Part shown: positions 5,051 to 35,469 of the stretch, one piece after another | Layout: each line of letters begins with the position of its first letter | How positions within the stretch are numbered: position 1 is the first letter of the stretch | NCBI GenBank assembly: GCA_003225465.1 | Contig: QIAH01000364.1 | Span: 1,169-41,171 of the forward strand | Reading direction: 5' to 3' | DNA length: 40,003 nt | DNA from: Acidobacteriota bacterium | Lineage (GTDB): Bacteria > Acidobacteriota > Terriglobia > Terriglobales > Acidobacteriaceae | Position numbers and translations under genes: made by a program | Notes under the pieces: model-generated | What the model saw: only the letters and a program-made list of their open reading frames with translations | The model's database searches: none | Told to the model about the DNA's origin: nothing

Positions 5051-5072
5051 GCCGTGTTTACTCCTTGAGACT

Positions 5073-5090
5073 GCAGTATCAGCATACTGC
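5073..5090. promoter_or_regulatory. Perfect inverted repeat upstream of the permease (possible operator)
   Basis: GCAGTAT-CAGC-ATACTGC has 7-bp perfect arms and lies 7 bases upstream of the permease ribosome-binding site. If translation starts at the TTG at 5050, this repeat is in the untranslated leader or promoter and could bind a dimeric regulator or form a short hairpin. The evidence is symmetry only. Confidence 0.4.
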
Positions 5091-5147
5091 CGCATCGGCT
5101 GGAGTGTTCATGGACGAAAGCCTGTCGGCCCGCGTACCAACAGGTCG

Positions 5148-5324: not shown

Positions 5325-5471
5325 AAACCCCATGCACTCCCAGCCCCGCGGGCTGGCGCGTGAACTCGAGCAATTCGCCCTAGTGGTCGTGCGAGTGGAT
5401 CAGATAGTCAGCCGCATCGCTGAACTCTCTGCTCCTAGTCATCCCTTTAGTCCTGCTTTTTCCCAAAGGCC

Positions 5472-6404: not shown

Positions 6405-6462
6405 GATTTCCTCACTGGCATGGAATCACCTGCAAGAGCCTCGCGAACAAAATTCTTCTGAG

Positions 6463-6483
6463 GATCGAGCTCAAGGCTCGATC
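6463..6483 (-). terminator. Perfect 8-bp stem hairpin between receptor and isomerase genes
   Basis: GATCGAGC (6463-6470), a 5-base loop, then GCTCGATC (6476-6483). It lies about 80 bases after the receptor stop. There is no immediate T-tract on the minus strand (TTTT comes about 14 bases later), so it may be a weak terminator, an attenuator or an mRNA-stabilising hairpin. Confidence 0.4.
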
Positions 6484-6563
6484 ACTACTTCCATCAAGTC
6501 CGCCGCCATCGACTTCTGCATCGCTTCCTCGGCATGCTGGAGAGCGAAGGGTGCGTTACAAAC

Positions 6564-9500: not shown

Positions 9501-10076
9501 CACCCCCGGTTGCAACGCCAACAGATCTGTGTAGCTGCGCGTGACCAGCGGCACCGTTGTGATGCGGTCCCCTTCAATCACTTCACCCAGTTGCGAACTC
9601 GCGGTCTCCACGTGCGTGGCTTCGCTCTGCACCTGCACCAGTTCCCGCACTTCTCCAACCTGCAGAGCGACATCCACAACAAGGGCGGCATCTACGTCCA
9701 GAACCAAGCCGGTTTTCTTGTAGCCCTTGAACCCAGACTGCTGCACGCTCACTTCGTAATGCCCCAAAGGCAGCGTCTGAAATGAATAAAAACCAGCGGA
9801 GTTGGTCTTTTGACTCTGCGAGATGCCGGTGTCCGTGTTCGATGCTGTGACGTTGGCCCCCGTAACCGCTGCCCCACTTGGATCGCGCACGGTTCCCGAG
9901 ATACTTGCGCTGACACCTGCGAAACAAACGGCTCCTAGAACAAGGAGCGCCACGCCCGCGTAGCAAATCGTGACAATTCGCGACGACCGGCGTACGCATC
10001 GGGTGTCTGGTTGCTGCATGCTGCCAAAGAAATTGCTACCGTTGCTGATGCCCTCCCGAAAAGTCGCCAATTGCAT
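6564..10076 (-). CDS. TonB-dependent receptor with carboxypeptidase-regulatory domain (Oar-like)
   Basis: 1170 aa outer-membrane protein. A hydrophobic export segment (residues about 33-55) precedes a CarboxypepD_reg-like domain (SISGTVRDPSGAAVTGANV through about 140), then a plug domain (TTVPLVTRSYTDLLALQPGV, INVITKGGTNRVHG) and a very large barrel ending in ITQFSLKLNF. The terminal phenylalanine is the usual outer-membrane insertion signal. This architecture is expanded in Acidobacteriota and is thought to import glycan or other large nutrients. AGGAGG lies 5 bases before the ATG at 10076. A sigma70-type promoter with overlapping TATAAGCGC repeats is upstream. The ligand is unknown; the neighbouring isomerase suggests a sugar or polyol. 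Confidence 0.92.
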   Translation of the reverse strand: MQLATFREGISNGSNFFGSMQQPDTRCVRRSSRIVTICYAGVALLVLGAVCFAGVSASISGTVRDPSGAAVTGANVTASNTDTGISQSQKTNSAGFYSFQTLPLGHYEVSVQQSGFKGYKKTGLVLDVDAALVVDVALQVGEVRELVQVQSEATHVETASSQLGEVIEGDRITTVPLVTRSYTDLLALQPGVVSSASGMSGAYGGIFNSAGFAVPKVSGDLSSGALSVNGQREANNGFLLNGATVQESGYGGTTAIPNLDSIAEFRILTNNYDAEYGNYSGGQINVITKGGTNRVHGNAFEFLRNTALNTRNYFAPPGTIGAYHQNQFGGTIGGPVIKDRIFFFADYQGNRKVVGESSPLVAVPTPTEVNGDFSAIGSQLAGTVTGPTWASQLGTALGHTVTEGEPYFFAGCSSSNCVFPNAQIPTSLFSPISKNLLAYIPTSSSGSFTTTSVSDHLRDDKTSGRIDANTGVGLFSVYYLFDNYKLSTPYPTANVPGFDAAGTGRTQNINLGNTRTFGGSTVNEARVAFTRVNNSLNLPKGGKNVTLSGLGFTTGGNGIVPLDPSVEGVPEIDFGSGLIIGVPSRPNRLIENTFQLLDNFSRVIGTHSVKMGANFHYNQLVEQLHNVLDGNFVFLGSETGSDFADFLLGAPTNYVQGQAEPSNGRSKYFGAYAQDSWRAKSNLTLNYGLRWDVSTPWSEQHNQIETIVPGLQSRVFPGSPTGWVFPGDPGIPASLAPTRYNNFGPRLGVAYSPDAKTSVRAGYGVFFTAFEGSTNFNEIGDAPFGFFWVGTAPSFSTPFINRTDGGLQGGTGQKFPVVFPPLNVGPKNPDNNVNWSVLTPIASSPGFYYKNRLPYSENYDLSLQRQFSANTLLTVSYVGTQGHRLLVTMEANPANPQACLALAPACGPGTESNFNVRLPVFGPLFGTNGYFIALGQSSYNSLQVNLRHTAGRLQLLAGYTYSKSLDNSSGYGEQVNFIRPKDSIALSAFNVTHNFVVSYSYDIPLDRLASNRLTKGWTWSGITRFATGIPITLIENDNNSLLGTQFTGPIPLGIDVPNYNGAGIHVLDPRKNKFQYFDTTPFSAEQIGQLGNSRRRFFHGPGINNWDMALLKDTKLTETLDLQFRAEFFNIFNHTQFQNVNGNISSASTFGFAQTAADPRITQFSLKLNF

Positions 10077-10206: not shown

Positions 10207-10747
10207 GACTTTTCGCCAGTTTCTGCCGCCACTCGGCAACTCCTCCAGAGAACGCATGAACACCCCAAGTCGACCTGCGAATAGTTCGGGACCGTAAAAC
10301 TGGTTTCGTCGTGAATTTGCAAAATGTCTCAGCTCATCCGGCTTTGGCGTGAACACAATACGCTTTTCGCTGCGCCGTTTGAATAGTCGCACCCATGTCT
10401 GTGTTTGGACGATCCTGGCGCAGACCCGATACCCCTACTCAGCAACAAAAGGCAGGCTTGCAGATGACTCCCACACCTCATATCGCCATGCCCAAAATGT
10501 CGCATTGAACTAGGGACCAAATTCTTAGTGATTGGAAATCACGCGAAAGACGGACCTATAGTGTGCCCCTAGATGTGGATATCGAAGTGAACGCGGGCAC
10601 GGATTACCAGGCAAGGTGCTATTCGCTAGGCCCGCCCACACTGCCGTCGACCGTATCATCCCATCTCATCAATGACTTAGAAAAGAGCAAGAAATCTAAT
10701 CGCGTGCCTGCGTCTTTTTCGGGCACTTCCGCGTATGTATCGGTAGC
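10207..10747. other. Divergent intergenic region
   Basis: About 540 bases separate the receptor promoter from the ECF sigma gene. I recognise no protein homology; the one long minus-strand frame (10392-10036) runs through the receptor promoter and looks fortuitous. A palindrome at 10528-10542 is the only distinct element. Confidence 0.5.
10528..10542 (+). promoter_or_regulatory. Palindrome GTGATT-GGA-AATCAC in front of the ECF operon
   Basis: Perfect 6-bp arms around 3 bases. It overlaps TTGGAA (10532-10537), which with TATAGT (10557-10562) and a 19-base spacer forms a weak sigma70-like promoter reading toward the ECF gene. A regulator site is plausible but unproven. Confidence 0.35.
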
Positions 10748-11344
10748 ATGAACGCGACTGCCTGCTATTTCGTGAGCGCGATGGCCGACGAAAACACCGA
10801 CATCGCTCGTGGCCTGCGACGTCGCGATCCTGAACTGCTCGACCGCCTGATCGAGCAGTACCAGCACCGTCTCCTGCGCTATCTCGTCTACCTGAGCGGC
10901 CGCCGCGACCTGGCCGAGGACTTCTTCCAGGAGACCTGGGTCCACGTGCTCGAACGCGGTGGCCAGTACGATGGCCGCCATGAGTTCAGTACCTGGCTTT
11001 TTACCATCGCGCGCCATCTCGTCATCGACCACTTGCGTAGCAAGCGACCAACGAGCCTCGACAGCCTGGCAGATCAAGATGATCTGGCCCCATTCGATAT
11101 TCCGGCCGCCGGGCAGCCTTCCGCATTTGATGCGACGGTTCAACGCGAGCAAAACGAACAGATTTCTGCCGGCATGCAGCACATCGCAGCCGAATACCGT
11201 GAAACCCTGCTGCTTCGCTTTCAGGAAGGGATGTCACTGGAAGAAATTGCCAGTGTAATCGGCGCGCCTCTGGGCACGGTGAAATCCCGGATCTATCGCG
11301 GCCTGAGCGCCCTGGAGCCGTGGGTCAAAGGAGCCCGCCTGTGA
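10748..11344 (+). CDS. ECF-type RNA polymerase sigma factor
   Basis: 198 aa. The sigma region 2 core is RLIEQYQHRLLRYLVYLSGRRDLAEDFFQETWV, followed by FSTWLFTIARHLVIDHLR. Region 4 is YRETLLLRFQEGMSLEEIASVIGAPLGTVKSRIYRGL, the ECF helix-turn-helix that contacts the -35 element. The factor directs RNA polymerase to a stress or envelope regulon. A second in-frame ATG at 10781 (MADENTD) may be the true start; neither has a strong ribosome-binding site. Its TGA overlaps the GTG of the next gene, so translation is coupled to an anti-sigma factor. Confidence 0.88.
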   Translation: MNATACYFVSAMADENTDIARGLRRRDPELLDRLIEQYQHRLLRYLVYLSGRRDLAEDFFQETWVHVLERGGQYDGRHEFSTWLFTIARHLVIDHLRSKRPTSLDSLADQDDLAPFDIPAAGQPSAFDATVQREQNEQISAGMQHIAAEYRETLLLRFQEGMSLEEIASVIGAPLGTVKSRIYRGLSALEPWVKGARL

Positions 11345-11853
11345 ACCCTGATCTTATGAATGCCGATCCTCATGAACGTGCGCGTTTGATGATCGCCTTG
11401 TCCGGCACAGAAGGACTTTCCAGTGCGAAACCGTGGCACGCCGAGGAATCGTGGTTGGCTGCACATCTGGAATCATGCGCGTCATGTCGTGCGTTCGCGG
11501 AGAACTCGAGGGAGACGATTCGCGCACTGCGCGGAATTCCAATAACCGCGAGCGGGCGTCTGGTATTCACGACACAAATGCGTGTGCGCCAGCGGGCAGC
11601 GGAATTGCGGCGCCAGCAAGAACGGTTTTGGGTGATCTGCGTTTGCTGCGCAGCCGTGACCCTTTCCACCGCGGTTAGCACAGCGCTGCTGTGGCGCGGA
11701 TTTGCGTGGCTGGGCCATCAGGCACGGCTGTCCACGCCAGTGTGGGAAAGCGGCTTCGTCGTGTTCTATCTGACTCCGGCGGTTCTGGTTGGGATTCTCC
11801 TGCTTGCGCGCGGGACTTTTCTCGCGGATCACAACGGCTCTTTTCAGGATTAG
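11341..11853 (+). CDS. Membrane-anchored zinc-finger anti-sigma factor
   Basis: 170 aa from a GTG that overlaps the sigma stop (GTGA). The N-terminal half holds a short zinc-finger-like motif, HLESCASCRAF, as in anti-sigma ZAS domains. Two hydrophobic helices follow: VICVCCAAVTLSTAVSTALLW and GFVVFYLTPAVLVGILLLA. It should bind and hold the upstream ECF factor at the inner membrane until a signal releases it. Order and overlap with the sigma gene are the strongest support. The ligand or signal is not evident. Confidence 0.78.
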   Translation: MNPDLMNADPHERARLMIALSGTEGLSSAKPWHAEESWLAAHLESCASCRAFAENSRETIRALRGIPITASGRLVFTTQMRVRQRAAELRRQQERFWVICVCCAAVTLSTAVSTALLWRGFAWLGHQARLSTPVWESGFVVFYLTPAVLVGILLLARGTFLADHNGSFQD

Positions 11854-11916
11854 AACTGTGGATCCGCGTAGAAGCCGCAGTGGATCTACGGCGAAACGAA
11901 CTCTGGAGACTTGGAT

Positions 11917-12459
11917 ATGCCAGTTAGGAATGAAACTTCAACCCGCTTTATAGACGAGGTCCGCATTATCTCGCAGTGGACATACGTCGTCGCATTTCTC
12001 AGCTATCCGGTGGCGGCGGCAGCCGTGGTGTTCACCACTCTTACAGACAAGTCTGGTGATCATTTTCATAAGCTGCCGGTGCTGGTGCCGCTCGCAATCA
12101 TGGGAGGAACTGCGCTCGCCTGTTACATCCTGCTCATTGGTTACGTCAACAGCGACGCCGGCCGCCGCGGCATGAGTCGCCTTGGCTGGACGCTACTCGC
12201 AATTTTCATCCCGCACGCGCTCGGCATTGTGTTGTATTTCGTCCTGCGCAAACCACTTACCTCGAACTGTCCACAATGCACCGCGGTCGTCGAACCCAGC
12301 TTTGGCTTCTGTCCTCGATGCCAGTGCCGACTGAATGCCACCTGTCCGCAGTGCCGACGCAGCGTACATGCTGCTGACAAATTTTGCCCGTATTGCGGCC
12401 GCGGCCTTGGCGCCGTTGCAAACGAAGGGGTAAACAACGAGGGGAGGAGCGCCCCGTAG
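11917..12459 (+). CDS. Membrane protein with double zinc ribbon
   Basis: 180 aa. Three hydrophobic segments come first: YVVAFLSYPVAAAAVVFT, LVPLAIMGGTALACYILLIGYV and LGWTLLAIFIPHALGIVLYFVL. A cytosolic tail with paired zinc-ribbon knuckles follows (CPQC..CPRC near residue 122, then CPQC..CPYC to 167). Start is the ATG at 11917 with GGAG 8 bases before; an upstream TTG at 11911 is less likely. It lies 63 bases after the anti-sigma gene and is probably in the same operon. The function is unknown; zinc-ribbon membrane proteins of this kind may sense or assemble envelope components. Confidence 0.75.
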   Translation: MPVRNETSTRFIDEVRIISQWTYVVAFLSYPVAAAAVVFTTLTDKSGDHFHKLPVLVPLAIMGGTALACYILLIGYVNSDAGRRGMSRLGWTLLAIFIPHALGIVLYFVLRKPLTSNCPQCTAVVEPSFGFCPRCQCRLNATCPQCRRSVHAADKFCPYCGRGLGAVANEGVNNEGRSAP

Positions 12460-12514
12460 ACTGCGAGCACGCGTCGCTGCATTTCGGAGATTGCCATGTG
12501 CAGGAGGAATTACA

Positions 12515-12841
12515 ATGAAACCCCCTTTGACCTTGCTTGTGCTTGTCCTAGTGTTGCTCAGCATTCTCGCTGGATGCGCAGCGGGCCCTAACCAATTCAA
12601 AGGAACAGCGAGCGAACACCATGAAGTCGCAGGCTTCTGGCTCGGCCTCTGGCAAGGCTTCATTGCGCCCTTTGTGTTTGTGGCCTCGCTGTTCAATAGC
12701 CACCGGAATATCTACGAGGTCCACAACAACGGAGCCTGGTACAACTTCGGTTACCTGTTTGGCCTCGCTTGCTTCTTCGGCGGCACCGCCAACCGCGCGT
12801 CGCGGCCGCAGTGTGGCCAGGCTCGCGGATCCGCAAAATAA
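12515..12841 (+). CDS. Small lipoprotein of a conserved unknown family
   Basis: 108 aa. The signal sequence TLLVLVLVLLSILAGC ends in a lipobox, so the mature protein should carry a lipid on Cys and sit on the membrane. The rest matches a recognisable small family: FWLGLWQGFIAPFVFVASLFN, then IYEVHNNGAWYNFGYLFGL. Start ATG at 12515 has AGGAGG 7 bases upstream, excluding the longer frame from 12491. It is the last gene of the ECF operon, which suggests an envelope role. No catalytic motif is visible. Confidence 0.8.
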   Translation: MKPPLTLLVLVLVLLSILAGCAAGPNQFKGTASEHHEVAGFWLGLWQGFIAPFVFVASLFNSHRNIYEVHNNGAWYNFGYLFGLACFFGGTANRASRPQCGQARGSAK

Positions 12842-13202
12842 TGCGCACTAAGTACCGCATATACTCGGACTCGCCCGAAACGGCGTTCGGCATCGGTCGC
12901 GACCGAGCCCACGGATATACCACGGTGACGCAATTAGCTCGTAACGCTGGGAGTCGTGAGTAAATAAATTTGGCCCAGCCGGTCGAACGATACGTGATCG
13001 GGAGATCGGAGTTAGATAGACCAAGGAGCTTTCTACTTTGGCCAACAGGAGAGAAATCGAAGCGCTGAAGGAAGGCTAGCCCAGATGGCTTCTCTCCTCT
13101 GCTTAGCGGCCTTGTCGCGAGCATTTGATCCAGGCCCGTTAGCTGTTGCCAAGAACGAAATCATCTTGAACAGTCGCAACAGCGGACTGCTCGGATTGGC
13201 GA
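12842..13202. other. Intergenic region without recognisable gene
   Basis: Open frames exist on both strands (for example minus 13124-12693) but none gives recognisable protein sequence. I see no strong hairpin or repeat. Confidence 0.5.
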
Positions 13203-13364
13203 TTACATTGTGAGGACTGCGCGGACGCGGGTCTCGCCCTCCGCGACGCGCTCGTAGGCCTTCGCAGCTTCGGCCAACGGGTAGGTTTCAATTATCGATT
13301 TGACTCTTCTTTGGGCTACGTAATCGAGGGCTTCGTAATCTGCCGGCACAGCTGAAGGTCCTCG
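13203..13364 (-). pseudogene. Zinc-type alcohol dehydrogenase, C-terminal remnant
   Basis: The frame ends in ALDYVAQRRVKSIIETYPL followed by AEAAKAYERVAEGETRVRAVLTM and a stop. This is the standard C-terminus of NAD(P)-dependent MDR alcohol dehydrogenases (pattern IE.YPL..A..AY.R...G..R.R.VL). The upstream part of the frame ([16 protein letters not shown]) has no such homology, so only the last 50 or so residues remain. Confidence 0.65.
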
Positions 13365-13514
13365 AGATTCTAAAAAGGAGATGAGGAAAGGGATAGAAGA
13401 GACGATGAAACAGCAGCCGCCTGCCATGGCTGCGGCTGACTGATCCGGCGTCATTCGAGGCCCAATCGGTTCGGCTTCCTTAAAATTGCTCAGACCAATC
13501 GCGGCATAGTTTGG

Positions 13515-13688
13515 AATTGCTCGACGGGTTCACTCGCACATTTGGGGATAGCCCGCGCCTACGCCTTGCAGGGCGACATCACCAAGGCTCAGGCTGCATA
13601 TCAGGACTTCCTCACGCTATGGAAAGATGCTGACCCCGATATCCCTGTCCTGAGAGAAGCTAAAGCCGAGTACGCGAAGTTGCAGTGA
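13515..13688 (+). pseudogene. Acidobacterial TPR serine/threonine kinase, C-terminal remnant (copy 1)
   Basis: The frame reads [22 protein letters not shown], then [20 protein letters not shown] and AEYAKLQ-stop. This is the characteristic C-terminal TPR end of the large PknB-TPR kinases of this phylum. No kinase domain precedes it. A second copy of the last 17 codons is at 17182-17238 in the same orientation. Confidence 0.7.
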
Positions 13689-13940
13689 CCTGGATTTGTT
13701 CCACCCGAAGCGTAGATTTCCTGGGTGCTGATGTCGCGGACCAGCAGAGACTAATCGTTTGGAGCTAATCGACTCCATCCCCCGCGGAAAGAACCTGCGG
13801 ATGTTGTGCAGCCTCACAGATGGGGCTCCCGCCACGTGTGTTTGTTCGGGCCGGAGGGCGGAATCCCCGATCTCGTTTGACGAAAAACGAAGCGAACTCC
13901 GGAGCATCGCCGAAACAAGGTCCGGTGTCCGAGTGCGGAT

Positions 13941-14305
13941 CTACTGCGAGGGTTTGGCAGGCTTCGCGGCCACCCTCCAGAAGGGATCGGCGGCTACCCA
14001 CTTGTCGGATACATAGCTTTCCCGCGGATTGAAGATGAACAGATTGGTCTGGGCACTTTCCATCGATGCTGCCGACAGATCGCTCAGTTTCTTCATGCCC
14101 TCTTCGCCCATCGATTGTTCGAACTGCTTTCCCATGACGAGTTCCTGGTCAACCTCCGACGCGGACTTCAAGGGCGAGAACACGGCGTAGGCGGTTCCGG
14201 ACTGCTGCCCGTACATCAGCTGAAAGGTGGCCCAGTGCACGTTCGGGACCGTCTCGTAGGCCGAGACGTACATTTTCGCAAGGTTCTCAAAGTCCTTGTC
14301 ATGAT
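13941..14305 (-). pseudogene. Conserved hypothetical acidobacterial protein, 5'-truncated
   Basis: About 120 codons with natural protein character: DFENLAKMYVSAYETVPNVH, WATFQLMYGQQSGTAYAVFS, then PLKSASEVDQEL and a C-terminus rich in Pro/Lys. It resembles a secreted family of unknown function that I know only by pattern. At its 5' end the frame runs into antisense sequence of a kinase fragment at about 14304, so start codon and signal peptide are gone. It reads as a broken gene, although the frame itself stays open to 14420. Confidence 0.55.
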
Positions 14306-14540
14306 CGAGAACCTCGGTGGCGACGGGATGGGCGTGGTTTACAAGGCGGAAGACATCGAACTCGGCTGGTTTGTTATGCTTAAATTCCTCCCCGAGGGCG
14401 TGGCAAAGACCCGCACGCACTGGAACGCTTCCGCCGGGAAGCCCGAGGCGCGTCCGCTCTGAACCATCCCAACATCTGCACCATTCACGAGATTGGGAAG
14501 AGTGGGGTTTAGTCCTTCATCGCGATGGGAGAACGCGGAT
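14304..14540 (+). pseudogene. Serine/threonine kinase, N-terminal lobe remnant with frameshift
   Basis: The glycine loop and lysine strand are readable: ENLGGDGMGVVYKAEDIEL, then [12 protein letters not shown]. After a frameshift near 14413 the next frame gives [20 protein letters not shown], then [12 protein letters not shown]. An in-frame TAG follows at 14509-14511, then SFIAMGE. These are subdomains I-V of PknB-like kinases. The catalytic loop is missing. It abuts the hypothetical fragment head to head. Confidence 0.7.
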
Positions 14541-14682
14541 CCGCGAAATAGTGGCCAACCCGACTTAAGTGAAAGACAGGAACTGGGTGGTATCCTTGAA
14601 GAAATTCACGGGGATGTGTATCGCGACAATTGTCGGGACGCGTCGAGGCTGCCAACAACTTTGCGCGAGAGGCTCGGACGCC

Positions 14683-15534
14683 ATGAAGTCAGGAGAACAT
14701 GTGCCCTTTCCCAGAGCCTTAGATTGGAGCCAACTCACGGAGGAGCAAGTTGCTGCCTTCGAACGTGATGGAGCCGTTTGCCTTCGTCAGTTGCTAAATC
14801 CTGAGGAAGTCGAACTGTTGCGCTGCGGAATCGAGTCCAACCTGAGACATCTTAGTCCCCGCGCAAAGATTGCCAGCCGTCCTGAGGACCCAGGACGTTT
14901 CGTGGAAGACTTCTGCTGCTGGCAGGAAAACGAGTATTACCGCCGCTTCATTTTCGGGTCGCCGGTCGGCGCTGTCGCCGGCCTACTCATGCAAAGCAAT
15001 ACGGTGCGCTTGTATCACGACCACATGTTGACCAAAGAACCCGCGACACGACAGCGCACTCCATGGCATCAGGACCAGCCTTATTACAACATCCATGGCC
15101 GGATGAATTGCAGTATGTGGATTAGTGTTGATCCGGTGGGCAGAGATTCTACTTTGGAGTTCATCGCAGGTTCGCACAAGGGCCCGTGGCTGATGCCCAG
15201 GTCGTTTATAAGCAACGAGGCAAAGTGGTTTCCCGAGGGAGATCTTGCCAATCTTCCAGATATTGAAGCCGCTCGGGAGGATTACCCCATCCTTGGATGG
15301 GAGGTCGAATCTGGTGATGTGGTGTGCTTCCATATGCTTACTCTGCACGCGTCCGCAGGCGTCCCAGGTACGGGAACACGCCGTGTTTTTTCCGTTCGCT
15401 TTCTGGGCGATGATATTACCCATGCTCCGCGCCGCTGGGCCACATCTCCTGAATTTCCTGGGTTGACCGATGAATTGCCCCCTGGTGCGCCCATGGATCA
15501 TCCGCTCTTTCCCGTAGTGTGGAAACGATCCTGA
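14683..15534 (+). CDS. Phytanoyl-CoA dioxygenase (PhyH) family Fe(II)/2-oxoglutarate oxygenase
   Basis: 283 aa from the ATG at 14683; the open frame reaches 14569, but those codons look unrelated. The 2-His-1-Asp iron triad is visible: H129 and D131 in TPWHQDQP and H222 in TLHASAG. Arg in GTRRVFSVRF (near 233) is placed to bind 2-oxoglutarate. The N-terminal LTEEQVAAFERDGAVCLRQLL is the usual PhyH start. Such enzymes hydroxylate lipids or small metabolites in the cytosol; the substrate is unknown. Start support is moderate (GAGAGG 10 bases before). It is an intact gene between debris and a permease. Confidence 0.85.
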   Translation: MKSGEHVPFPRALDWSQLTEEQVAAFERDGAVCLRQLLNPEEVELLRCGIESNLRHLSPRAKIASRPEDPGRFVEDFCCWQENEYYRRFIFGSPVGAVAGLLMQSNTVRLYHDHMLTKEPATRQRTPWHQDQPYYNIHGRMNCSMWISVDPVGRDSTLEFIAGSHKGPWLMPRSFISNEAKWFPEGDLANLPDIEAAREDYPILGWEVESGDVVCFHMLTLHASAGVPGTGTRRVFSVRFLGDDITHAPRRWATSPEFPGLTDELPPGAPMDHPLFPVVWKRS

Positions 15535-22343: not shown

Positions 22344-23081
22344 GTGTCTCAGGCTCCCTCCCTCCGAAACCAGGGAACTCCCCGGCATACTGTGCTCGTT
22401 CGGGTGACGCACTGGATCACAGTAATTTCTTTCATCGCTCTGCTGGTCACCGGCGTCGAAATCTTGATCTCTCACCCGCGCTTCTATTGGGGCGAAGTGG
22501 GTAATTCGCGGACTCCTCCGCTGTTCAAGATACCGATTCCTTCTTCGCGAGCCACCGTCCCGACCGGCTACGGATTCGTGCTGCCCGACCAGAACGGCTG
22601 GAGCCGGTATCTCCATTTTGAGGCAGCATGGGCTCTGGTGCTGACGGGCCTCGTCTACGTCATCTCCGGTTTATGGACGCGCCACTTCCGGAAGAACCTG
22701 TTTCCAGCTCCTGCAGACCGGACGTGGAGTGTATTCCGCAGCGTGATCGCGAAGCACCTTCGCCTGGCGCCGCCCGAGAGGGCCGACTTCCGCTCCTACA
22801 ACGTTCTGCAGCGCGTCACTTACTTGCTGGTTATCTTTGTACTGGTTCCGCTCGCGATCTGGACCGGACTGGCGATGTCCTCCGGATTCAATGCAGCTAT
22901 GCCGTGGGCCGTGACCTCCCTCGGAGGACGGCAATCCGCGCGCACCCTTCATTTCTTCGTCTCTATTTTTCTCGTGCTCTTTTTGTTCGTCCATGTTGCC
23001 ATGGTTGTTCTAACGGGATTCGCAACTCGTATGCGGGAGATGATCACCGGTCTCGCCGCTGTGTCCGAGGAACGCACATGA
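22344..23081 (+). CDS. Cytochrome b561-type membrane subunit
   Basis: 245 aa from GTG at 22344. Four hydrophobic helices carry four candidate haem histidines: H23 (VRVTHWITV), H91 (YLHFEAAW), H203 (TLHFFVSI) and H217 (FVHVAMVV), the diheme pattern of formate dehydrogenase/thiosulfate reductase-type cytochrome b. It should move electrons between quinones and its partner at the outer face of the membrane. Its TGA overlaps the ATG of the molybdopterin enzyme (ATGA), a strong sign of a two-subunit complex. The start is not backed by a clear ribosome-binding site. Confidence 0.85.
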   Translation: MSQAPSLRNQGTPRHTVLVRVTHWITVISFIALLVTGVEILISHPRFYWGEVGNSRTPPLFKIPIPSSRATVPTGYGFVLPDQNGWSRYLHFEAAWALVLTGLVYVISGLWTRHFRKNLFPAPADRTWSVFRSVIAKHLRLAPPERADFRSYNVLQRVTYLLVIFVLVPLAIWTGLAMSSGFNAAMPWAVTSLGGRQSARTLHFFVSIFLVLFLFVHVAMVVLTGFATRMREMITGLAAVSEERT

Positions 23082-23836
23082 GCAAGATCTCACGTCGCAA
23101 GTTTGTGACCGCCGGCCTTGCCGCAACCGCAGGCGTTTCGGGACTGGCCGTCGCCGCCAATCTGGCCAAGCGCTACGGACTCGTCCCCCCTGATAGTGGT
23201 GGAATCTATGGGCCGGGGGAAACGCTGACCTACGCCGGCCAGCGGCTTTTGGCCAGAAACTCGCTCGCTCGTGAGTTTCCTCGCAGCATGATTTCGAAGA
23301 TTCCTTTCGCTAACGAGATCCCGCCCTTGAACGAATCCTTCAAACGCCTGCAGGGCGGCGGTTTTGCGAATTGGCGACTTGTCATCGATGGAATGGTTGC
23401 CCGACCGGCATCGCTTTCCCTGGCCGATCTCAAGAGCTTTTCCGTACGCAGCCAAATCACTGAAGTTGTGTGTGAGGAGGGATGGTCTTACGTCGCCGAG
23501 TGGATCGGAACCCCTCTGTTTGAGGTGCTTAGGGCCTGCGAGATGCTGCCCGAAGCGCGATATGTCGTGTATTTCTCCATCGACCCCGATTGGTGGGATA
23601 GCATCGATATGGCCGACGCGCAGCATCCGCAGACTCTTCTGGCTTGGGCCATGAACGACGGAGATCTGCCGGTCGCGTTCGGCGGCCCACTCCGTTTGCG
23701 CGTGCCCCGCCAACTGGGCTATAAGAGCGTCAAATTTGTAAACCGGTTGATGGTCACCGACTCACTCAAAGGCTTTGTCTCGGCTCTCGATCCCAAGTCG
23801 CCGAATTTTGGCTACTCATGGTATGCGGGCATCTGA
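23078..23836 (+). CDS. Tat-exported molybdopterin oxidoreductase (sulfite oxidase/MsrP-like)
   Basis: 252 aa. It has a twin-arginine signal (SRRKFVTAGLAATAGVSGLAV) and an Oxidored_molyb domain: NWRLVIDGMVARPASLSLAD, then C132 in TEVVCEEGWSYVAEW, the cysteine expected to bind molybdenum. GGPLRLRVPRQLGYKSVKFV near the C-terminus is also typical. Such proteins are periplasmic and reduce sulfoxides or oxidise sulfite-like substrates using electrons from a membrane cytochrome. The overlapping cytochrome b gene supplies that partner, as MsrQ does for MsrP, although this cytochrome is of a different type. The substrate is not known. Confidence 0.87.
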   Translation: MSKISRRKFVTAGLAATAGVSGLAVAANLAKRYGLVPPDSGGIYGPGETLTYAGQRLLARNSLAREFPRSMISKIPFANEIPPLNESFKRLQGGGFANWRLVIDGMVARPASLSLADLKSFSVRSQITEVVCEEGWSYVAEWIGTPLFEVLRACEMLPEARYVVYFSIDPDWWDSIDMADAQHPQTLLAWAMNDGDLPVAFGGPLRLRVPRQLGYKSVKFVNRLMVTDSLKGFVSALDPKSPNFGYSWYAGI

Positions 23837-24376: not shown

Positions 24377-25351
24377 TCAGTTCTCGGGTAGCCTTTGACC
24401 AGCCGAACGAGCACTGGTCCGAGTTTTAGCAGTTTGCGCGTCCAGATATCGGATCAGGGCAGCTACGTCGGGGTCACCCAACCTCAAGTTGGGCATCTGC
24501 ACCTGTTTGTATTTCGCATACAGTGAGGTGGCGACGGGATCGCCATCCGCAACCATCTTGTCCGGTGTCGCGATGAATCGCGCGAGCCAGTCGTGGTCGC
24601 GGAAACGGGAAACTCCAAAGAGGTCAGGCCCTACGCCGTCGCCATGTCCGATTGTGTGGCAGGCTGCGCAGCGGGTCCGAAAAAGATATGAGCCCCTGTC
24701 GGCGTCAACAGTATGGGCTTCCGCATAACTGGGAGCCGGACTCTGATGCCCCCACGAGGAAAGCCAATCGCCTATCATAACGGCCATGTAGCTGGGATCG
24801 TCCAGCGCGCTATCCTGCATCCACTGGCCGGTTTCTTCGTTGCCGAGTGTGACACTCGTGCTGTGGCCGGTCAAACCGTTCTCGCCAGGACGGGCAGCTT
24901 GGCCGAGTTTCTTTCGTACTACTTCGATATCACTCTGCTCCCCCGTCAGAAACAGCCAGCCCGGTTTGACATGAAATTTGTCAGCATACTCTTTGAGTTC
25001 CGCGGGCGTCTCTCTCTCCGGATCGATGCTGATGGAGTAGAAGAAGACATCACGGCCCACTCGGTCACCGAGCAGGCGTTGCACCTGGGCGAGTTTGGCG
25101 GTCTCCATTGGGCATGAGTCGCGGCATTTGGTATAGATAAAATTGATGACGACCATTTTGCCCTTGAGGAGATCGGCGTAAAAGTGAACAGTTTTCCCAT
25201 CCTGTGTGACCAGAGGAACGTTGGGAAAGTAGTTCGCACCCCAAGGAGAACCGTTGTCGGCCGCAAAGGTGCGGCGCACGCTTAGCGAAGTTAGAACAGC
25301 GAGGACCACCACACGGGCCAACGCGATGCTCATTGAACTCTTCCGTGACAT
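24377..25351 (-). CDS. Sco1/SenC copper chaperone fused to cytochrome c
   Basis: 324 aa from ATG 25351 (AGGAGA ribosome-binding site 7 bases before; the longer frame to 25444 is not supported). A signal peptide (ALARVVVLAVLTSLSV) is followed by a thioredoxin-fold SCO1 domain with C76 and C80 (TKCRDSCPME) and H163 (TGHSTSV), the three copper ligands. A class I cytochrome c domain follows, with C228AACH232 and axial Met in QMPNLRLG (M286). Sco proteins deliver copper or thiols to cupro-oxidases outside the membrane. Here it is the last gene of an operon with a multicopper oxidase, so it may load or exchange electrons with that enzyme. Confidence 0.88.
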   Translation of the reverse strand: MSRKSSMSIALARVVVLAVLTSLSVRRTFAADNGSPWGANYFPNVPLVTQDGKTVHFYADLLKGKMVVINFIYTKCRDSCPMETAKLAQVQRLLGDRVGRDVFFYSISIDPERETPAELKEYADKFHVKPGWLFLTGEQSDIEVVRKKLGQAARPGENGLTGHSTSVTLGNEETGQWMQDSALDDPSYMAVMIGDWLSSWGHQSPAPSYAEAHTVDADRGSYLFRTRCAACHTIGHGDGVGPDLFGVSRFRDHDWLARFIATPDKMVADGDPVATSLYAKYKQVQMPNLRLGDPDVAALIRYLDAQTAKTRTSARSAGQRLPEN

Positions 25352-25473
25352 ATCGACTCTCCTTTTAATCGTCGTGACATCGAATACTTCCCAACGTGCA
25401 ACGCTAGGTCCATTTCGTCTTGTCCCGGCCCCGCACGAACCCAATCCTGGTTCCTTGCGGAGGCTATGATTAC

Positions 25474-25662
25474 TCAGCTCCGATGGGTGGCAATCGTTGT
25501 TGTTGGTTCTGGTTTCGGTTCCTCTTTCATGGCGGTTCGGAAGCCGCGGATCCCGTCCCCAAGTCCTTTCCCCAATTCCGGGAGCTTCTTCGGTCCAAAC
25601 ACCAGAAGCGCAATTCCGAAAATCACGAGCAAATGCATCGGTTGCAAAAGTCCTTCAAACAT
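25474..25662 (-). CDS. tatA: Twin-arginine translocase subunit TatA/TatE
   Basis: 62 aa. N-terminal helix (MHLLVIFGIALLVFGPKKLP) with the FGPKKLPELGKGLGDGIRGF hinge and amphipathic helix that define TatA/E. A charged tail follows. Start ATG at 25662 has AGGAGG 4 bases upstream; this is only 8 bases after the oxidase stop, so the genes are co-transcribed and likely coupled. TatA forms the pore that exports folded Tat substrates. The oxidase before it has a Tat signal, so this copy may be dedicated to it. Confidence 0.92.
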   Translation of the reverse strand: MFEGLLQPMHLLVIFGIALLVFGPKKLPELGKGLGDGIRGFRTAMKEEPKPEPTTTIATHRS

Positions 25663-25670
25663 AAGTCCTC

Positions 25671-27773
25671 CTAGTAGGCCGTTGGCAGAATGTTTGGATC
25701 TGTGAACTTCACGCCCTGGGGCGTCGGAACCGGTGTGGGCAAAGCCACCGGGCCCCGATCCAATTCCCAACGAATCAGCATGGCGTGATCTTCGTGCACT
25801 GTGTTGTGGCAATGCTCCATGAACATGCCCGCGAATTCACGGAATTGAATGCTGATCGTGACCGCACCGCCGGGGTGGAGTCGATACACGTCCTTGCGAC
25901 CCTGCTCCCAAGGCGGCACGTTGCTCGGACTTCCATTGCGGGCGAGTAACAGACTTTCTTCAAAGTGAATATGGATGGGGTGGTCCCAGCCGCCGCCGCC
26001 ATTCACTAGCGTCCAGACTTCCCGAGTACCCTGTTTGGGTGCGGCCGAGACCTGGTTGAAATCAGCTGCGAAGCCTTGGCCACCATCGGTCCGCACTGTC
26101 CAAGGTGCATCGTCTGTGCCGTTGGAGCGCCCGAACTCGAACGTGCGTTCCCGTGAGACCGGGATCTGCGACACATCGGGATTCGGAATCAACGTGCCGG
26201 GCACCTGGCTGAGGTCTGGCTTCGTGCACGGAACGATTTGGAATTCGAGAAACTTACCAACACAAGGGTCCGCGGAGTTGCCCGAGAGTGCTTCTGCGAG
26301 GGATAGATCATTCTTTGGTCCGCGTCCGTCCTCATGCTCGCACAGGTTCACCATCCAAACTTTCTGTCCCGGTTTATATCGGGAAAAGTCGATGACTACG
26401 TCATAGCGTTCGGCTATCCCTTGTTCGTCCAGTTCCCTCAAAACCACCGGATGAGGCAGCAGGTTGCCGTCGTTGCCGATCTGAATCATCGGAGAACCGT
26501 CGCTGAGCGCCAGTTTAAAGAAACGTGAAACGCTGCAATTGAGTATGCGGAAGCGATACTTACGCGCTTCTACTTGGAAGAAGGGCTTGTAGCATGCGTT
26601 CACGGTCATTACGTCGCCCAGAAAGCCGTCCAGTTGGAAAATGTCGAAAAAGAGCTGCCCATTGCTATCCCAGGCCTTGTCAGCCACCATCAGGTTAATG
26701 TCGTAATCGAGGTTGCCCCATGATTTCTCTGAACCACTCGGGAGGCCGAGGTTCACGCCGTCCCGGATGGTTTCGTTACCGCGATCCACGGCGCTGTAAA
26801 TGTTGAAACATGCGGCATTGCCCTTGTACACGTTTTGCGCGGTATAGCCGAACATGTGATCGTGGAACCAGTGGCTGCTCATGGTCTCGTGCCAGTCGCC
26901 AGGAATCTTGGTGTATCCACCGCTATCATCGGGACTGCCGGCCATGGGATCGGTGGCATCGGCATTGATGGTGTCGTGTCCGGCCAGGATGATGGGCCAG
27001 TGATAGTCGTAGAACTGTCCCGGGAAAAAGAAGGCGCCGGTATAGCCGTCATTTTCGGCGCCATGATGTCCGTTGTGCTCGTGAGTACTGATCGTGTGAC
27101 AACCGAAGCCACCATTCTTCTTCACGTCGACAGGAAGCTTGTTGTGATGCCGGAACAGGATCGGCTCACCGTAGCGCCCCAGCACGAGTTTCGGCGGGAT
27201 GGTTCCGTTGAAAGTCCACATCGCTAGCGGGCCTTGCGCCGGCAGGCTCGGATGAAACTTAAAGGGAATATTTCCATTGGGATTCGTTTTAGCACCTTCC
27301 TGGGTAACCTCCATCGCTACTTTGGGCGGAAGCTTCGCGAAGCGCTGGTGCGCCCAGTTCGGTCCGGGCGGACGTCCTTCGATTGGGCCAAAGCTGCCAC
27401 CCAACATGGGATCAACCCGCTGCAATGTCTGATTGCTTTGCGCCATCGGCGCGGGATTGAGCGAGGAGATGGGATTCCGCGGCAGCACTTCCAGGCGCAG
27501 CATGGGCTGGGTGAATTCCAAGCCGATCAGTCCCGGACTGCTCGGGGCTCCGGTCGGCACCTCGGCATACGCGCTTGAGATGAACGGGTTCAGGCCCTTG
27601 ATGGGGGCCAGCGCGCCGGCAGCTGTGAACAACCCCCACTTGATCAGTTCTCGTCGTGAAATCTGTCCCCAGGAGAGTGCTTGGACGATTTCCAGACGAT
27701 TCTTGCGAGCGTCCTCGGCTTCCTTGAGTCTCGTCTTTGAGGAGTTCCATGGTAAATAGATTCGGCTTTTCAT
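25671..27773 (-). CDS. Tat-exported multicopper oxidase (CotA/bilirubin oxidase-like)
   Basis: 700 aa. The twin-arginine motif is SRRELIKWGLFTAAGAL at residues 39-55, after an unusually long 38-residue n-region. All four copper-binding motifs are present in order: H231-E-H233 (STHEHNGHH), H301WFHDH306, H598PIHIH603 and H654CHNTVHEDHAM665. These supply the trinuclear cluster and the type 1 copper with Met as axial ligand. The enzyme should oxidise phenols, metals or c-type haem partners with O2 outside the membrane. ATG at 27773 has AAGGAG 6 bases upstream. It opens an operon with tatA and Sco1-cytochrome c, and has a sigma54-type promoter. Confidence 0.92.
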   Translation of the reverse strand: MKSRIYLPWNSSKTRLKEAEDARKNRLEIVQALSWGQISRRELIKWGLFTAAGALAPIKGLNPFISSAYAEVPTGAPSSPGLIGLEFTQPMLRLEVLPRNPISSLNPAPMAQSNQTLQRVDPMLGGSFGPIEGRPPGPNWAHQRFAKLPPKVAMEVTQEGAKTNPNGNIPFKFHPSLPAQGPLAMWTFNGTIPPKLVLGRYGEPILFRHHNKLPVDVKKNGGFGCHTISTHEHNGHHGAENDGYTGAFFFPGQFYDYHWPIILAGHDTINADATDPMAGSPDDSGGYTKIPGDWHETMSSHWFHDHMFGYTAQNVYKGNAACFNIYSAVDRGNETIRDGVNLGLPSGSEKSWGNLDYDINLMVADKAWDSNGQLFFDIFQLDGFLGDVMTVNACYKPFFQVEARKYRFRILNCSVSRFFKLALSDGSPMIQIGNDGNLLPHPVVLRELDEQGIAERYDVVIDFSRYKPGQKVWMVNLCEHEDGRGPKNDLSLAEALSGNSADPCVGKFLEFQIVPCTKPDLSQVPGTLIPNPDVSQIPVSRERTFEFGRSNGTDDAPWTVRTDGGQGFAADFNQVSAAPKQGTREVWTLVNGGGGWDHPIHIHFEESLLLARNGSPSNVPPWEQGRKDVYRLHPGGAVTISIQFREFAGMFMEHCHNTVHEDHAMLIRWELDRGPVALPTPVPTPQGVKFTDPNILPTAY

Positions 27774-27802
27774 GACTCGCTCCTTGTTACGTAGGACTGA
27801 AT

Positions 27803-27818
27803 TGCAGGTGGGTTGCCA
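27803..27818 (-). promoter_or_regulatory. Sigma54 (-24/-12) promoter of the multicopper oxidase operon
   Basis: The minus strand reads TGGCAACCCACCTGCA. GG (27817-27816) and GC (27805-27804) have exactly the 10-base spacing required, and TGGCA and TGCA match the consensus TGGCACG-N4-TTGCW. The predicted start near 27792 leaves a 19-base leader containing AAGGAG. The divergent gene encodes a sigma54 activator with GAFTGA. Confidence 0.7.
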
Positions 27819-27926
27819 GTGTGGAACGGTTCATCAGCGTTAGCGCAATGATCCTTACAAGCGCCTGATTCGCTGAGGGTTGCACCTTGGAGAAATGAAA
27901 CCAATTCTTTGCTGGGGGCTCTGCCG

Positions 27927-27976
27927 CTTGGGTTTTTCTGCTAACCAAACTGTTAATGCAAACCCTTGGGTTAATG
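27927..27976. promoter_or_regulatory. Repeats that could be activator binding sites
   Basis: CTTGGGTT occurs at 27927-27934 and 27965-27972. The second copy lies in the near-palindrome AACCC-TT-GGGTT (27961-27972). GTTAATG is repeated at 27952-27958 and 27970-27976, 18 bases apart. They lie about 135-185 bases upstream of the predicted oxidase start point, a usual distance for enhancer sites. Binding is inferred. Confidence 0.4.
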
Positions 27977-28027
27977 GCGGTATGCACTCTGGCGGAAATG
28001 TGCTAAACACATCGAAACGAGGAAAAA

Positions 28028-29929
28028 ATGAACCCGCGCATCTCCGGCATCTCTGGCCCGTTTCAAGGCACGACTTACTCTTTGGCCTCCGGAGAGCTGT
28101 CCATCGGGCGCGACCCGTCCAATCACCTCTGGATCTCAGATCCGGCTTTATCACGCCAGCACTGCCTGCTCACTCGGAAAGGTGACCGGTTCTTCATCCG
28201 TGATCTTGGAAGCCGTAATGGGACGATCGTGAATGGCATGACTGTCGACGAGCTGCAACTACAACACGGAGACCAAATCTCCATCGGTACTTCAGTACTC
28301 AAGTTTCTACTCGGGGGAGGCGAGGAAAACCTAAAAAGGAGCCGTGTCGAGTTTGTCGAGACCATGGCGTTCGAGAACCTTCCAGTAATAGTTCACGCCG
28401 CCGAAGCTTCCCTTCTGCAGGTTGACAAGTCGCCCGAGACGGCTCGTTTGGCTCGCGATTTGACCGCCTTGCTGAACCTCGCAAAGCATATCGGCGGCAT
28501 TCGGGATTTAGAGTCACTACAATGGCAGCTCTTAGGCTTTATCTTCGACGTAGTTCCGGCCGAGCGTGGTGCCATCCTGCTCTTCGAACATCCCGATGAA
28601 TTCAGCTCCGTGATTGCCTGGGATCGAGTCCGCGGTCCCGGTTGCTCAGTTCAAGTGAGCCGCACCATCGTCCAACGGGTTGCCAGGGAACGCACTGGCT
28701 TGGTTACGAACGATATCTTCAGCGATGAGGGTCTTCGTCAAATCCGTACCCTGACTGAATTGCAAATCCGTTCCGTGCTCTGCGTCCCACTGTTAGCTGG
28801 GGACGAAGTACTGGGGATGATTTATCTGGACAGCCAGCACCGGTCAGATCAATTCGATGAGGGTCGTCTGCAAGTGATGACAGCCATAGCAGGGATAGCC
28901 GCTCTCGCTCTCGGAAATGTCTGCAATATTGAACAGTTACAGAAGGAAAACCAGCAATTGCAAGCAGAGATCAACCTGGAGCACAACTTGGTTGGTAACA
29001 GTCAAAGTATGCAGAAGGTGTTTGAGCTCATTCGTCGGGTCGCACCCACGGAGTCAACTGTGCTCATAGAGGGTGAGAGCGGAACCGGGAAAGAGTTGGC
29101 GGCCCGCGCGGTCCATCGCAATAGTCCGCGGGCCGAGCGACCTTTCGTGGCGATCAACTGTGCTGCAATCCCGGATTCCCTGTTAGAGACTGAACTGTTC
29201 GGGCATGAGAAGGGGGCTTTTACCGGAGCTAGTTCACTGAAGAAAGGGAGATTGGAAACAGCTGAAGGTGGAACACTATTTTTGGACGAGATAAGCGAAC
29301 TTGCCGGCGACATGCAGGCAAAGTTGTTGCGGGTTTTGCAGGAGCGTGAGTTCGAACGTGTCGGCAGTAATCATCCCATAAAGCTCGACATCCGCGTAGT
29401 CGCAGCCACCAACAAAAACCTGGCTGAGGTCGTCAAAACGGGCGCCTTCCGTACTGATTTGTATCATCGCCTGAACGTGGTCACCTTGACCTTGCCTGCG
29501 CTACGGGAGCGACGCGACGATATTCCCGCGTTAGCCGAGCACTTGATCGCCAAGGTCAGCCGGAAATGTAAAATGCGACCCAAACAACTCTCACCAGAGG
29601 CGAAAGCGTGCCTGATGAGGTATCAGTGGCCAGGTAATATTCGTGAATTGGAGAATGCTCTTGAGCATGCCATTGTCCTGGGCTCCAGCAACACAATCTT
29701 GCCAGACGATTTACCAGAAGCCATTGTAGAGATGGGTTCGCCGGCTCTGCCTCTGAACGCGCACTATCACGCAGCGATTACAGACTTCAAAAAGCAGCTC
29801 GTTCGGGAGGCTTTCAGGCAGGCGAAGGGAAGTTATTTGGAAGCCGCAAAGAATCTGGGGATGCATCCTAATTCTTTGCTTCGGTTGATTCGGAGTTTGG
29901 ACCTTAGATCGGATCTACAAGCCCGATGA
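28028..29929 (+). CDS. Sigma54-dependent activator with FHA and GAF sensor domains
   Basis: 633 aa. N-terminal FHA domain (residues 1-95: [32 protein letters not shown]), which binds phosphothreonine. A GAF domain covers about 150-300 ([34 protein letters not shown]). The AAA+ domain has Walker A GESGTGKE (349-356), the sigma54-contact loop GAFTGA (396-401), Walker [10 protein letters not shown] (about 414-422) and [17 protein letters not shown]. The C-terminal Fis-type HTH is about 585-625 ([20 protein letters not shown]). It replaces the receiver domain of classical NtrC with FHA plus GAF, so input is a phosphoprotein and/or small ligand. It is divergent from the oxidase operon, its likely target. 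GAGG lies 6 bases before the ATG. Confidence 0.93.
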
Positions 29930-33885: not shown

Positions 33886-34185
33886 GCTCTGGGACCTACC
33901 CTTCGTAGCCCGGACCTACACCCCACAGCCACGACACCATTAACAATATTGCAGCCTGTCGCTAACGACGAGAAGAACGGTTTAGCAAAGCCCGGCCCCT
34001 CGCTTTAGCGATCCGACGCGCCTAGAATCAGTAGCCTTTTGGGAAAGCTCGCTGCTGTGTCTCCGGTACGATAAACGCGGCGACGCGCAGGCCGTCAGGC
34101 AATTGCGGGCACGGCATCAAGTTCGACCAGTGTACGGGCAGGATGTACCGGCGTTCTGTGCGATGCGATAAGAAGTACAGAAATA
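33886..34185. other. Intergenic region up to the left end of an IS
   Basis: No gene or clear repeat was recognised. Confidence 0.4.
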
Positions 34186-35469
34186 CAGGCTGCGGAAAAA
34201 TTGATTCGCGGCGCGTTTTTCTTTCTGTCTTTCATCTTTAGTGATGTCGACGGATCTGATTTTCGGTGTTTTGGCAGTCCCGGAGTCCAACTCCGGACTT
34301 TTTCGCACACACGTCGGCCCCGACCTACACCGCCGGAACTGCCGCCATGAGATTCCGCAGGCGCACCAGATTGTAAGCCGCGCAGGCGAAGGTGAAGAGC
34401 CAGTGCACTCGGCACACACCGCGATGGCGCACCTTGCGCATCAGCGCAATCGTCTTCAGCCAGCCGAAGCATTCTTCGATCCGCTTCCTTTTCCTTTGAC
34501 TGACGGCGTAGCCTGGGTGCCGCGTGGTGCGGCCATCAATCGCGCTGCCGCCGCGGCGTTCGTGGTTCTGCGCCACATGCGGCGTCACCCGCAGGTTCCG
34601 GCACTCTTTGACAAAGTCGCGCGTGTCGAACCCTTTGTCTCCGCCCACCGTCACCGGTTGCGTGCCAGGAAGTTTCTCCAGCATCACCAGCGCGGCATCG
34701 CGCTCCGCCGTACCGTTGGCTGGAACACTTCTGCGTCCACGATCAGTCCGTTGCGATTCTCCACCAGCAGATTCCCGGTGTAACTCAACTTCGACTCCTT
34801 GCCTTCGCCTTTGCGCGCCAGCAGCGCCTCGGGATCGGTCTTCGACTCATGCCTCTCATTCGAACGCCGCTCCCCGCGAAAGTTCACCGTGGGGTTGCCG
34901 GGATCATCCGACGGCGGTTGCTTCTTGTCCTTCGCCTGAAAACTCTTCGCCCCAGCCCAGGCTTCCAGCAACGTGCCGTCCACCGTGAAATGCTCGTCAC
35001 TGGTCAACCCTTTCGCCCGCGCTTGCTCTACCACCTGCACCAGGAACTCCTTGGCCACCTCGGCTTCCAGCAAGCGATCGCGATTCTTCGTGAACACCGT
35101 CGCGTCCCACACCTCGTCGTCCAAGTTCAACCCGACAAACCAACGGAACAGCATGCTGTAGTCGATCTCTTCCATCAACAACCGTTCGCTCCGGATCGAG
35201 TACAGCATCTGCAACAACTGCGCCCGCAAAAGTTGTTCCCGGGGGATCGAAGGTCGTCCCACGCGGGCATACATCGCGTCAAACCGCCGCGACAACTGTT
35301 TGAGCACTTCGTCCACCGTGGCCCGGATGGTGCGCAGCGGGTGATCTTTCCGCACTCGCTCCTCCGGCGACAAATAACTGAAGATGTGATTCTGCTGCTG
35401 ATCGGTTCCGCGCATGCCTTCTCGTATCACACAAGGCTGTGGATTCGGCAGTAGTTTTTCAGCATCCTG
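34186..35469 (-). mobile_element. IS5/IS1182-like insertion sequence, about 1.28 kb, inactivated
   Basis: Left end CAGGCTGCGGAAAAATT (34186-34202) and the inverted right end CAGGATGCTGAAAAACT (35469-35453) match at 14 of 17 positions and bracket a DDE transposase gene with one frameshift. I could not identify a clear target duplication, so the exact outer limits are approximate. Confidence 0.72.
34325..35430 (-). pseudogene. DDE transposase (DUF772 type), single frameshift
   Basis: The 5' part (35430-34684) has the DUF772 N-terminal domain (HPLRTIRATVDEVLKQLSRR, SERLLMEEIDYSMLFRWFVG) and the first catalytic Asp in HFTVDGTLLEAWAG. The 3' part (34687-34325) supplies VTVGGDKGFDTRDFV with the second Asp and RKRIEECFGWLKTI with the catalytic Glu. 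Near 34720 a single missing base shifts the frame: the expected QANGTAERDAALVMLEKL is split. All else is well preserved, so inactivation is recent, or this is a sequencing error. The start codon could be an inner ATG at 35415. Confidence 0.85.

Follow-up and report, generated by a model that had tools for sequence, protein, structure and literature searches.

The closest described relatives of the locus presented here are the McoA-type manganese oxidases of Pseudomonas. In P. putida GB-1, McoA is a multicopper oxidase (MCO) with a SCO1/SenC gene downstream, and IHF-sigma54 promoters are predicted for mnxG as well as for mcoA (PMC11930936, excerpts). Excerpts of PMC11409713 report that the sigma54 response regulator MnxR takes part in control, that an rpoN insertion abolishes manganese oxidation in Pseudomonas sp. 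MS-1 and is complemented, and that the gene order in Pseudomonas sp. DSV-1/MS-1 is mnxS1-mcoA-SCO1-mnxS2-mnxR. Eight mcoA homologues are reported for P. resinovorans MO-1 (PMC5854784). We analyzed a 40,003-nucleotide stretch of an Acidobacteriota genome (contig QIAH01000364.1, hereafter the window), in which an operon encoding an MCO, TatA and a Sco1/SenC-cytochrome c fusion is divergent from the gene of an FHA-GAF sigma54 activator. Its sequence features make it probable, in our estimation, that this cassette is a self-contained sigma54-switched operon for a Tat-exported, Sco-matured MCO, most likely a metal oxidase.

The four genes and a -24/-12 element were located by open reading frames (ORFs), Pfam and motif search as an earlier note, made from the letters of this DNA, had described them. 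On the plus strand, positions 28028..29929 encode the 633-residue activator, assigned by Pfam (Sigma54_activat 2.2e-73, FHA 3e-21, GAF_2 1.2e-13), NCBIfam and alignment. GAFTGA is present in its translation, and its AAA+ and sigma54 interaction domains make it a sigma54 enhancer-binding protein (EBP). The C-terminal Fis-like helix-turn-helix listed with these domains in the note is visible by eye and gave no Pfam match at E 0.001. Membership of NifA (TIGR01817), the best NCBIfam match, was rejected as its 409 bits lie below the 528.85 cut-off. The minus strand carries the 700-residue MCO (25671..27773; Pfam Cu-oxidase_2 4.7e-16, tree and alignments), with a Tat motif and all copper ligands kept, then a 62-residue TatA (25474..25662; ATG at 25662, stop codon ending at 25474; Pfam TatA_B_E 3.2e-18, NCBIfam TIGR01411) and the 324-residue Sco1/SenC-cytochrome c fusion (24377..25351; ATG at 25351, stop codon ending at 24377). 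The latter was assigned by Pfam (SCO1-SenC 4.2e-22, Cytochrom_C 4.9e-7), and its CxxxC and CxxCH motifs were read from the translation. The tatA ATG lies 8 bases 3' of the MCO stop codon with a GGAGG ribosome-binding site in between, and 122 bases separate tatA from sco. No terminator-like site was found on the minus strand in this 122-base gap.

The MCO N-terminus contains SRRELIK followed by a hydrophobic stretch, a motif of the S/T-R-R-x-hydrophobic type that supports its predicted export by Tat. A quick, midpoint-rooted tree built from 73 of the 149 MCO rows, which gave long-branch warnings, separates the short, the long and the outer MCOs, each group by a branch of its own (94, 100 and 100 as support in that order). 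The short clade (94, not starred) is sister to the long, McoA-type clade (100); the window MCO lies outside the latter and is sister to the MCO of locus L046 within the former. Of the named short MCOs, 75 of 78 have the strict Tat motif, compared with 8 of 26 outer ones and none of 34 long ones. The long clade thus appears to be exported by another route than the short clade, which would make sense of an in-operon tatA in the latter. Residues that we take to be the copper ligands are invariant across 32 aligned MCOs. The predicted structure (mean pLDDT 81.6) has CotA and bilirubin oxidase as its best folds in the PDB. Membership of CueO (NCBIfam NF008205) was rejected at 120.8 bits, far under the cut-off of 525, as was that of FtsP at 65 bits against 581.

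The comparison with McoA was made through a Pseudomonadaceae locus, L204, as a stand-in for the GB-1 McoA sequence. By Pfam, L204 encodes a histidine kinase, an MCO, a Sco-cytochrome c fusion, a second histidine kinase and a sigma54 response regulator in a row, and it was taken as McoA-type because this is the published mnxS1 to mnxR order. With gaps included, 324 of 710 columns (46%) are identical between the window and L204 MCOs, and 149 of 331 (45%) between the Sco-cytochrome c proteins. In 8 of 20 Pseudomonadaceae loci the MCO and Sco-cytochrome c are followed by a sigma54 activator of 476-480 residues, the Pfam check being that of L204 only. The two published quantitative PCR primers for the mcoA of P. 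resinovorans MOB-513 both have exact matches in the long MCOs of L127, L189 and L190, which represent two genomes since L127 and L189 are one place; L135 is matched by the reverse primer only.

The predicted promoter TGGCAACCCACCTGCA (27803..27818, minus strand), identified by motif search, comparison with L046 and matrix scores, is the window's sole exact match to TGGCA-N7-TGCA. Under the convention, assumed here, that -12 is the C of TGC, the transcript would start at about 27792 with a leader of 19 nt, the length that the first reading had given. The scoring matrix for such elements was built from a general consensus and not from data, and its maximum is 18.9. In L046, which belongs to an Acidobacteria metagenome-assembled genome (MAG) and whose MCO is 86% identical to that of the window, the element TGGCACACCGCCTGCA occupies the same place, 30 bases from the ATG versus 29 in the window. 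The 16-base motif is 81% identical between the two, the 100 columns upstream 51%. The well-kept stretches of the intergenic alignment are the activator 5' region, a CATTAAC/GGGTT block and the interval from element to ATG. About 85% of the block is kept, as opposed to 35-55% in the 60 columns that follow on the promoter side, and this conservation designates CCATTAACCCAAGGGTTTGCATTAACAGTTTGGTTAGC (27940..27977, minus strand) as a candidate activator binding site. Repeats of CATTAACC in L046 point to the same site. Because it comes from two genomes only, the conservation of the element is modest evidence. A single rpoN match was found in the host genome.

The same scoring was applied to the MCO relatives, of which the best 80 of 140 found make up the named set. 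Elements of at least 13 stand before 19 of 31 long-clade ORFs. Shuffles give 0.023 per region, and on the opposite strand of these 31 regions a score of 13 is never reached (best 11.2). All 17 Pseudomonadaceae loci L202-L218 score at least 11.4. In the short clade, a score of at least 11 is reached by 5 of the 6 regions whose MCO has an activator no farther than 4 kb away, versus 3 of the 76 remaining ones (Fisher p 1.2e-5), and a score of at least 13 by 3 of 6 versus 2 of 76 (p 0.002); these p-values are optimistic because the loci are partly close kin (window and L046; L073 and L083). The count used 300 bases upstream, so that the L058 element lies beyond, and some regions were misplaced by cut ORFs (L104, L123); element-to-MCO distances from the first upstream scan are approximate. 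According to Pfam, the short-clade activators receive different inputs: FHA-GAF in the window and L046, response regulators in L058, L073, L083 and L089, GAF in L072 and no N-terminal domain in L063. L272 repeats the order of L058 (a predicted 489-residue activator, MCO, Sco-cytochrome c, tatA), and TGGCAAAGCAGTTGCT is the element in both. In L273, TGGCACGCAACTTGCA reaches the matrix maximum of 18.9 about 157 bases before the MCO frame, with no activator in the stretch. L125 also has an element at the maximum of 18.9, about 154 bases before the MCO and with no visible activator; the MCOs of both loci belong to the short clade.

Homologues of the activator were found at E<=1e-100 in 37 of 297 genomes of the phylum, own genome and partial matches counted, and 13 loci with flanks (48-53% identity) were examined, a fourteenth lying on too short a contig. 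All but L254 contain the FHA part. Six residues (G27, R28, S42, R43, H45 and N69) are invariant in 8 aligned activators; GR, SxxH and N are the signature of phosphothreonine-binding FHA domains, and the domain would bind a phosphothreonine protein. No kinase was linked to it. In 9 of the 13 homologues (L242, L243, L245-L249, L252 and L254, the last just at 13.0) an element of at least 13 occurs within 500 bases, directed away from the activator gene; the divergent elements of the others score 4.8 to 10.4. Elements pointing towards the activator score 8.9 at best, and shuffles reach 13 in 0.9% of regions. The genes behind the divergent elements vary, several of them being unnamed. No MCO, Sco or TatA was found in the 13 loci, among frames of at least 200 and then at least 45 residues, and on this ground the idea that the activator belongs to an MCO system of wide distribution was rejected. 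Since nine of the 13 face a strong divergent element beside differing genes, these data suggest a modular, plug-in local switch whose targets were swapped in evolution.

L243, L246 and L249 share a common stretch around GACAGCCTCCGGAGGTTGT just 3' of the -12, hairpin-capable by eye, which could be a leader RNA or a small gene. Rfam scanning of 8 activator loci returned only a tRNA, with no family for this stretch at the gathering threshold.

The occurrence of the whole arrangement was examined in the named set and in the class. An FHA-GAF-AAA+ activator together with tatA was seen only in L046 among the best 80 of 140 MCO relatives; in 59 of these 80 the sequence extends over more than 2.5 kb 5' of the MCO, and the other 21 could not show the arrangement. 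In the class, 9 of 399 genomes have a match at E<=1e-120, and only L269 among the nine regions inspected has the full set; the search gave 16 places, four of which (in G1028 and G1073) are not among the flanked regions. L269 is the same DNA as L046 (likewise L274 and L058, L276 and L118, L277 and L053), and this DNA is held by G1062, a genome of the host's family. Apart from a short match between transposase-like frames, similarity between L046 and the window is limited to the four genes. The genus search gave no further orthologue, the one match in two genomes being the own genome.

The conservation check proposed in the earlier note thus had a divided outcome: the divergent four-gene set is confined to L046/L269, but the succession of MCO and Sco-cytochrome c is widely kept. 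A Sco gene lies within 1.5 kb 3' of the MCO in 64 of the 72 named ORFs having at least 1.8 kb downstream and is missing in 8, a further 10 ORFs having too little downstream sequence. All 64 are cytochrome c fusions. Some MCO match is present in 103 of the 396 genomes sampled from the phylum; 13 loci from among the best were examined, and Sco lies beside the MCO in 12 of them. On these two counts, the MCO and Sco-cytochrome c are a conserved pair to which tatA and the FHA-GAF activator are additions. The Sco-type copper loading first proposed for this operon is supported at the sequence level; the attached cytochrome c may serve Sco redox or oxidase electrons. In the host genome there are 7 TatA-like matches, so the operon TatA is an extra copy. 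Such a tatA is rare beside MCOs, being present in 2 of 80 named loci (L046 and L058; 76 of the 80 have more than 400 bases downstream) and in L272 of the class sample. In L058 and L272 it lies about 0.5 kb after Sco, a second arrangement.

In two pseudomonad genomes, G397 (that of L074) and G398, eight (L126-L133) and seven (L134-L140) MCO loci were examined, and in each a separate Sco gene comes after the MCO. In the genus of G397, 14 of 18 genomes have MCO matches, and 54 of 328 genomes of its family, the source of the 20 Pseudomonadaceae loci above, match at E<=1e-20. Other compositions were observed: in L084 and L121 (10245-10739) a 164-residue exported-looking protein takes the usual place of Sco after the MCO, and in L035 (7446-13326) a 1362-residue MCO with DUF7482 precedes a triple fusion of Sco, cytochrome c and PCu(A)C. 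L146, from the L061 genome of Ramlibacter alkalitolerans, has adjoining MCO frames at 4753-9690 (1645 residues) and 10618-15483 (1621 residues), with no Sco match in the stretch. MofA was not identified in congeners of the Sphaerotilus MAG L099, where L165, L167 and L168 score at most 10.4.

Gene content, homology, copper ligands, the Tat motif and the promoter element with its partial conservation are features of the sequence, from which the following model can be drawn. The activator would bind in the intergenic region, where its probable site is the CATTAAC/GGGTT block, some 120-160 bp upstream of the -24. Upon engagement of its FHA domain by phosphothreonine, of its GAF domain, or of both, it would drive sigma54-RNA polymerase at the -24/-12 element, from which MCO, tatA and sco/cytochrome c would be transcribed. 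The MCO would be exported via Tat, the extra TatA presumably assisting, and the Sco domain would load copper while the cytochrome c carries electrons in the service of either the copper step or the oxidase. The enzyme itself is predicted to be a three-domain MCO of the CotA/bilirubin-oxidase type, from the short, Tat-type sister clade of the McoA superfamily. This position within the McoA superfamily makes a metal its most likely substrate, Mn(II) in the first place, which would be oxidized outside the cytoplasm.

Several observations weigh against this reading. The four-gene arrangement is known from just two genomes. The element of the window has a score of 11.7, where 3.5% of shuffled regions already attain 11; when at most one mismatch is tolerated, TGGCA-N7-TGCA occurs 16 times in the window against 12.0 expected, so the motif alone is weak and its significance by itself was rejected. 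The leader (0.75) and the activator 5' region (0.8-0.9) are likewise well kept in L046. In the short clade 74 of 82 upstream regions score below 11, and L033, outside the six-region set, has a best score of 3.7 with a sigma54-AAA+/PilZ protein about 2.7 kb from its MCO. Most members of this clade lack both a nearby activator and a good element, so that sigma54 control does not hold for the clade as a whole. In the long clade 12 of 31 ORFs stay below 13 (L212 and L213, both 11.4, L127, L135, L165, L167, L168, L035-L037, L147 and L149), including L127 (6.5) and L135 (5.1), the two with the matches to MOB-513 mcoA primers described above. One could thus suppose that the element is fortuitous, the operon having an ordinary sigma70-type promoter and the activator serving other genes. 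The element is lifted above chance, however, because it is kept in place in L046 and because such elements accompany nearby sigma54 activators, both in the short clade and divergently in 9 of 13 activator homologues. Its position and spacing also speak for it, and the two sigma70-like sites found in 6.6 kb (3.1 expected from shuffles) both lie outside the intergenic region. We therefore regard a fortuitous element as very improbable, and control by sigma54 through the divergent activator, as the earlier note had it, as supported at the sequence level. It would be just as surprising if Sco-cytochrome c and TatA were chance neighbours rather than partners of the MCO. The rarity of tatA beside MCOs would fit such a view, as would the second sigma70-like site, which lies at the tatA/sco junction (25493-25466, minus strand) and leaves a separate sco promoter possible. 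Yet Sco-cytochrome c comes after the MCO in most testable cases, tatA starts right behind the MCO stop codon with its own ribosome-binding site, and it recurs, after Sco, in the second arrangement.

The nature of the substrate is the more delicate point. With the same switch and export, the oxidase could instead be a laccase/phenol oxidase or a cuprous/ferrous oxidase, acting on organic matter or in protection against copper or iron, and we give this alternative somewhat less than an even chance. The closest solved relatives are indeed bilirubin oxidase and CotA, and the short clade stands apart from the McoA-type clade. Substrates may also have diverged, because genomes carry many MCO paralogues, as illustrated by the eight MCO-Sco loci of G397. 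For mco3296 of MOB-513, an identity of only 31% to GB-1 McoA is reported (PMC9765421, Table 1). The closest relatives with a published role are nevertheless the McoA-type manganese oxidases, with which the cassette has in common the pair of MCO and Sco-cytochrome c and, in part, sigma54 control. Metal oxidation accordingly remains our favored reading.

If the sister clade oxidizes Mn(II) or another metal, sigma54-controlled metal oxidation would extend to the Acidobacteriota, with FHA/GAF input, and the defined four-gene cassette would be a place where this input could be tested. The divergent promoters of the activator family would moreover offer a direct way to predict the targets of FHA-GAF activators in the phylum. 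A broader and rather doubtful extension is that Acidobacteriota FHA-GAF activators are plug-in switches with their own back-to-back -24/-12 promoters and varied targets, and that here metal oxidation outside the cytoplasm, by a sister of McoA, is switched on not through a two-component system but by a phosphothreonine signal from a Ser/Thr kinase together with a GAF ligand.

Outside the cassette, positions 22344-23836 of the window encode a cytochrome b561-type protein and a protein with a molybdopterin oxidoreductase domain (Pfam), convergent with the operon and unmatched beside the L046 cassette. Transposase-like frames, labelled by eye, lie at 34095-35430, and 34117-34419 briefly matches a frame near the edge of L046. 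An Rfam scan of the window gave no match.

Comparison with known systems places the cassette closest to the McoA operon. Both have an MCO with all copper motifs, a Sco gene downstream (fused to cytochrome c in L204 as in the window, where tatA lies in between), a predicted sigma54-type promoter and a sigma54 AAA+ activator. The window MCO differs in being shorter, without large inserts, and in its Tat motif, absent from the long MCOs. The activator differs in having FHA-GAF instead of a receiver domain and in being divergent, and tatA within the operon is a further difference. No sensor kinases, MnxS1, MnxS2 or MnxR lie beside the cassette, a distant MnxR in the genome not having been searched for. 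FHA-domain sigma54 EBPs of Myxococcus xanthus were reportedly described by Jelsbak et al. in 2005; by that title alone, FHA and the sigma54 AAA+ domain are in common, whereas the window activator adds GAF, its family has a divergent local promoter and its target is an oxidase operon. With CotA laccase and Myrothecium bilirubin oxidase the MCO shares the three-domain fold and the copper ligands, at 21-27% identity in the listed structural alignments (all MCOs), but it has an N-terminal extension with the Tat motif and is linked to Sco-cytochrome c. CueO is exported by Tat, and CueO/FtsP-type MCOs resemble the window MCO in fold and export, their NCBIfam cut-offs lying far above its scores. The earlier note had known of no described system with this set. 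That holds for the exact four genes, no description being found among the open-access literature matches listed, which is weak as an absence, but not for the kind. Sigma54-controlled MCOs with a Sco partner are known, as McoA in Pseudomonas, and the cassette is a variation on them in its switch, its export route and its extra gene.

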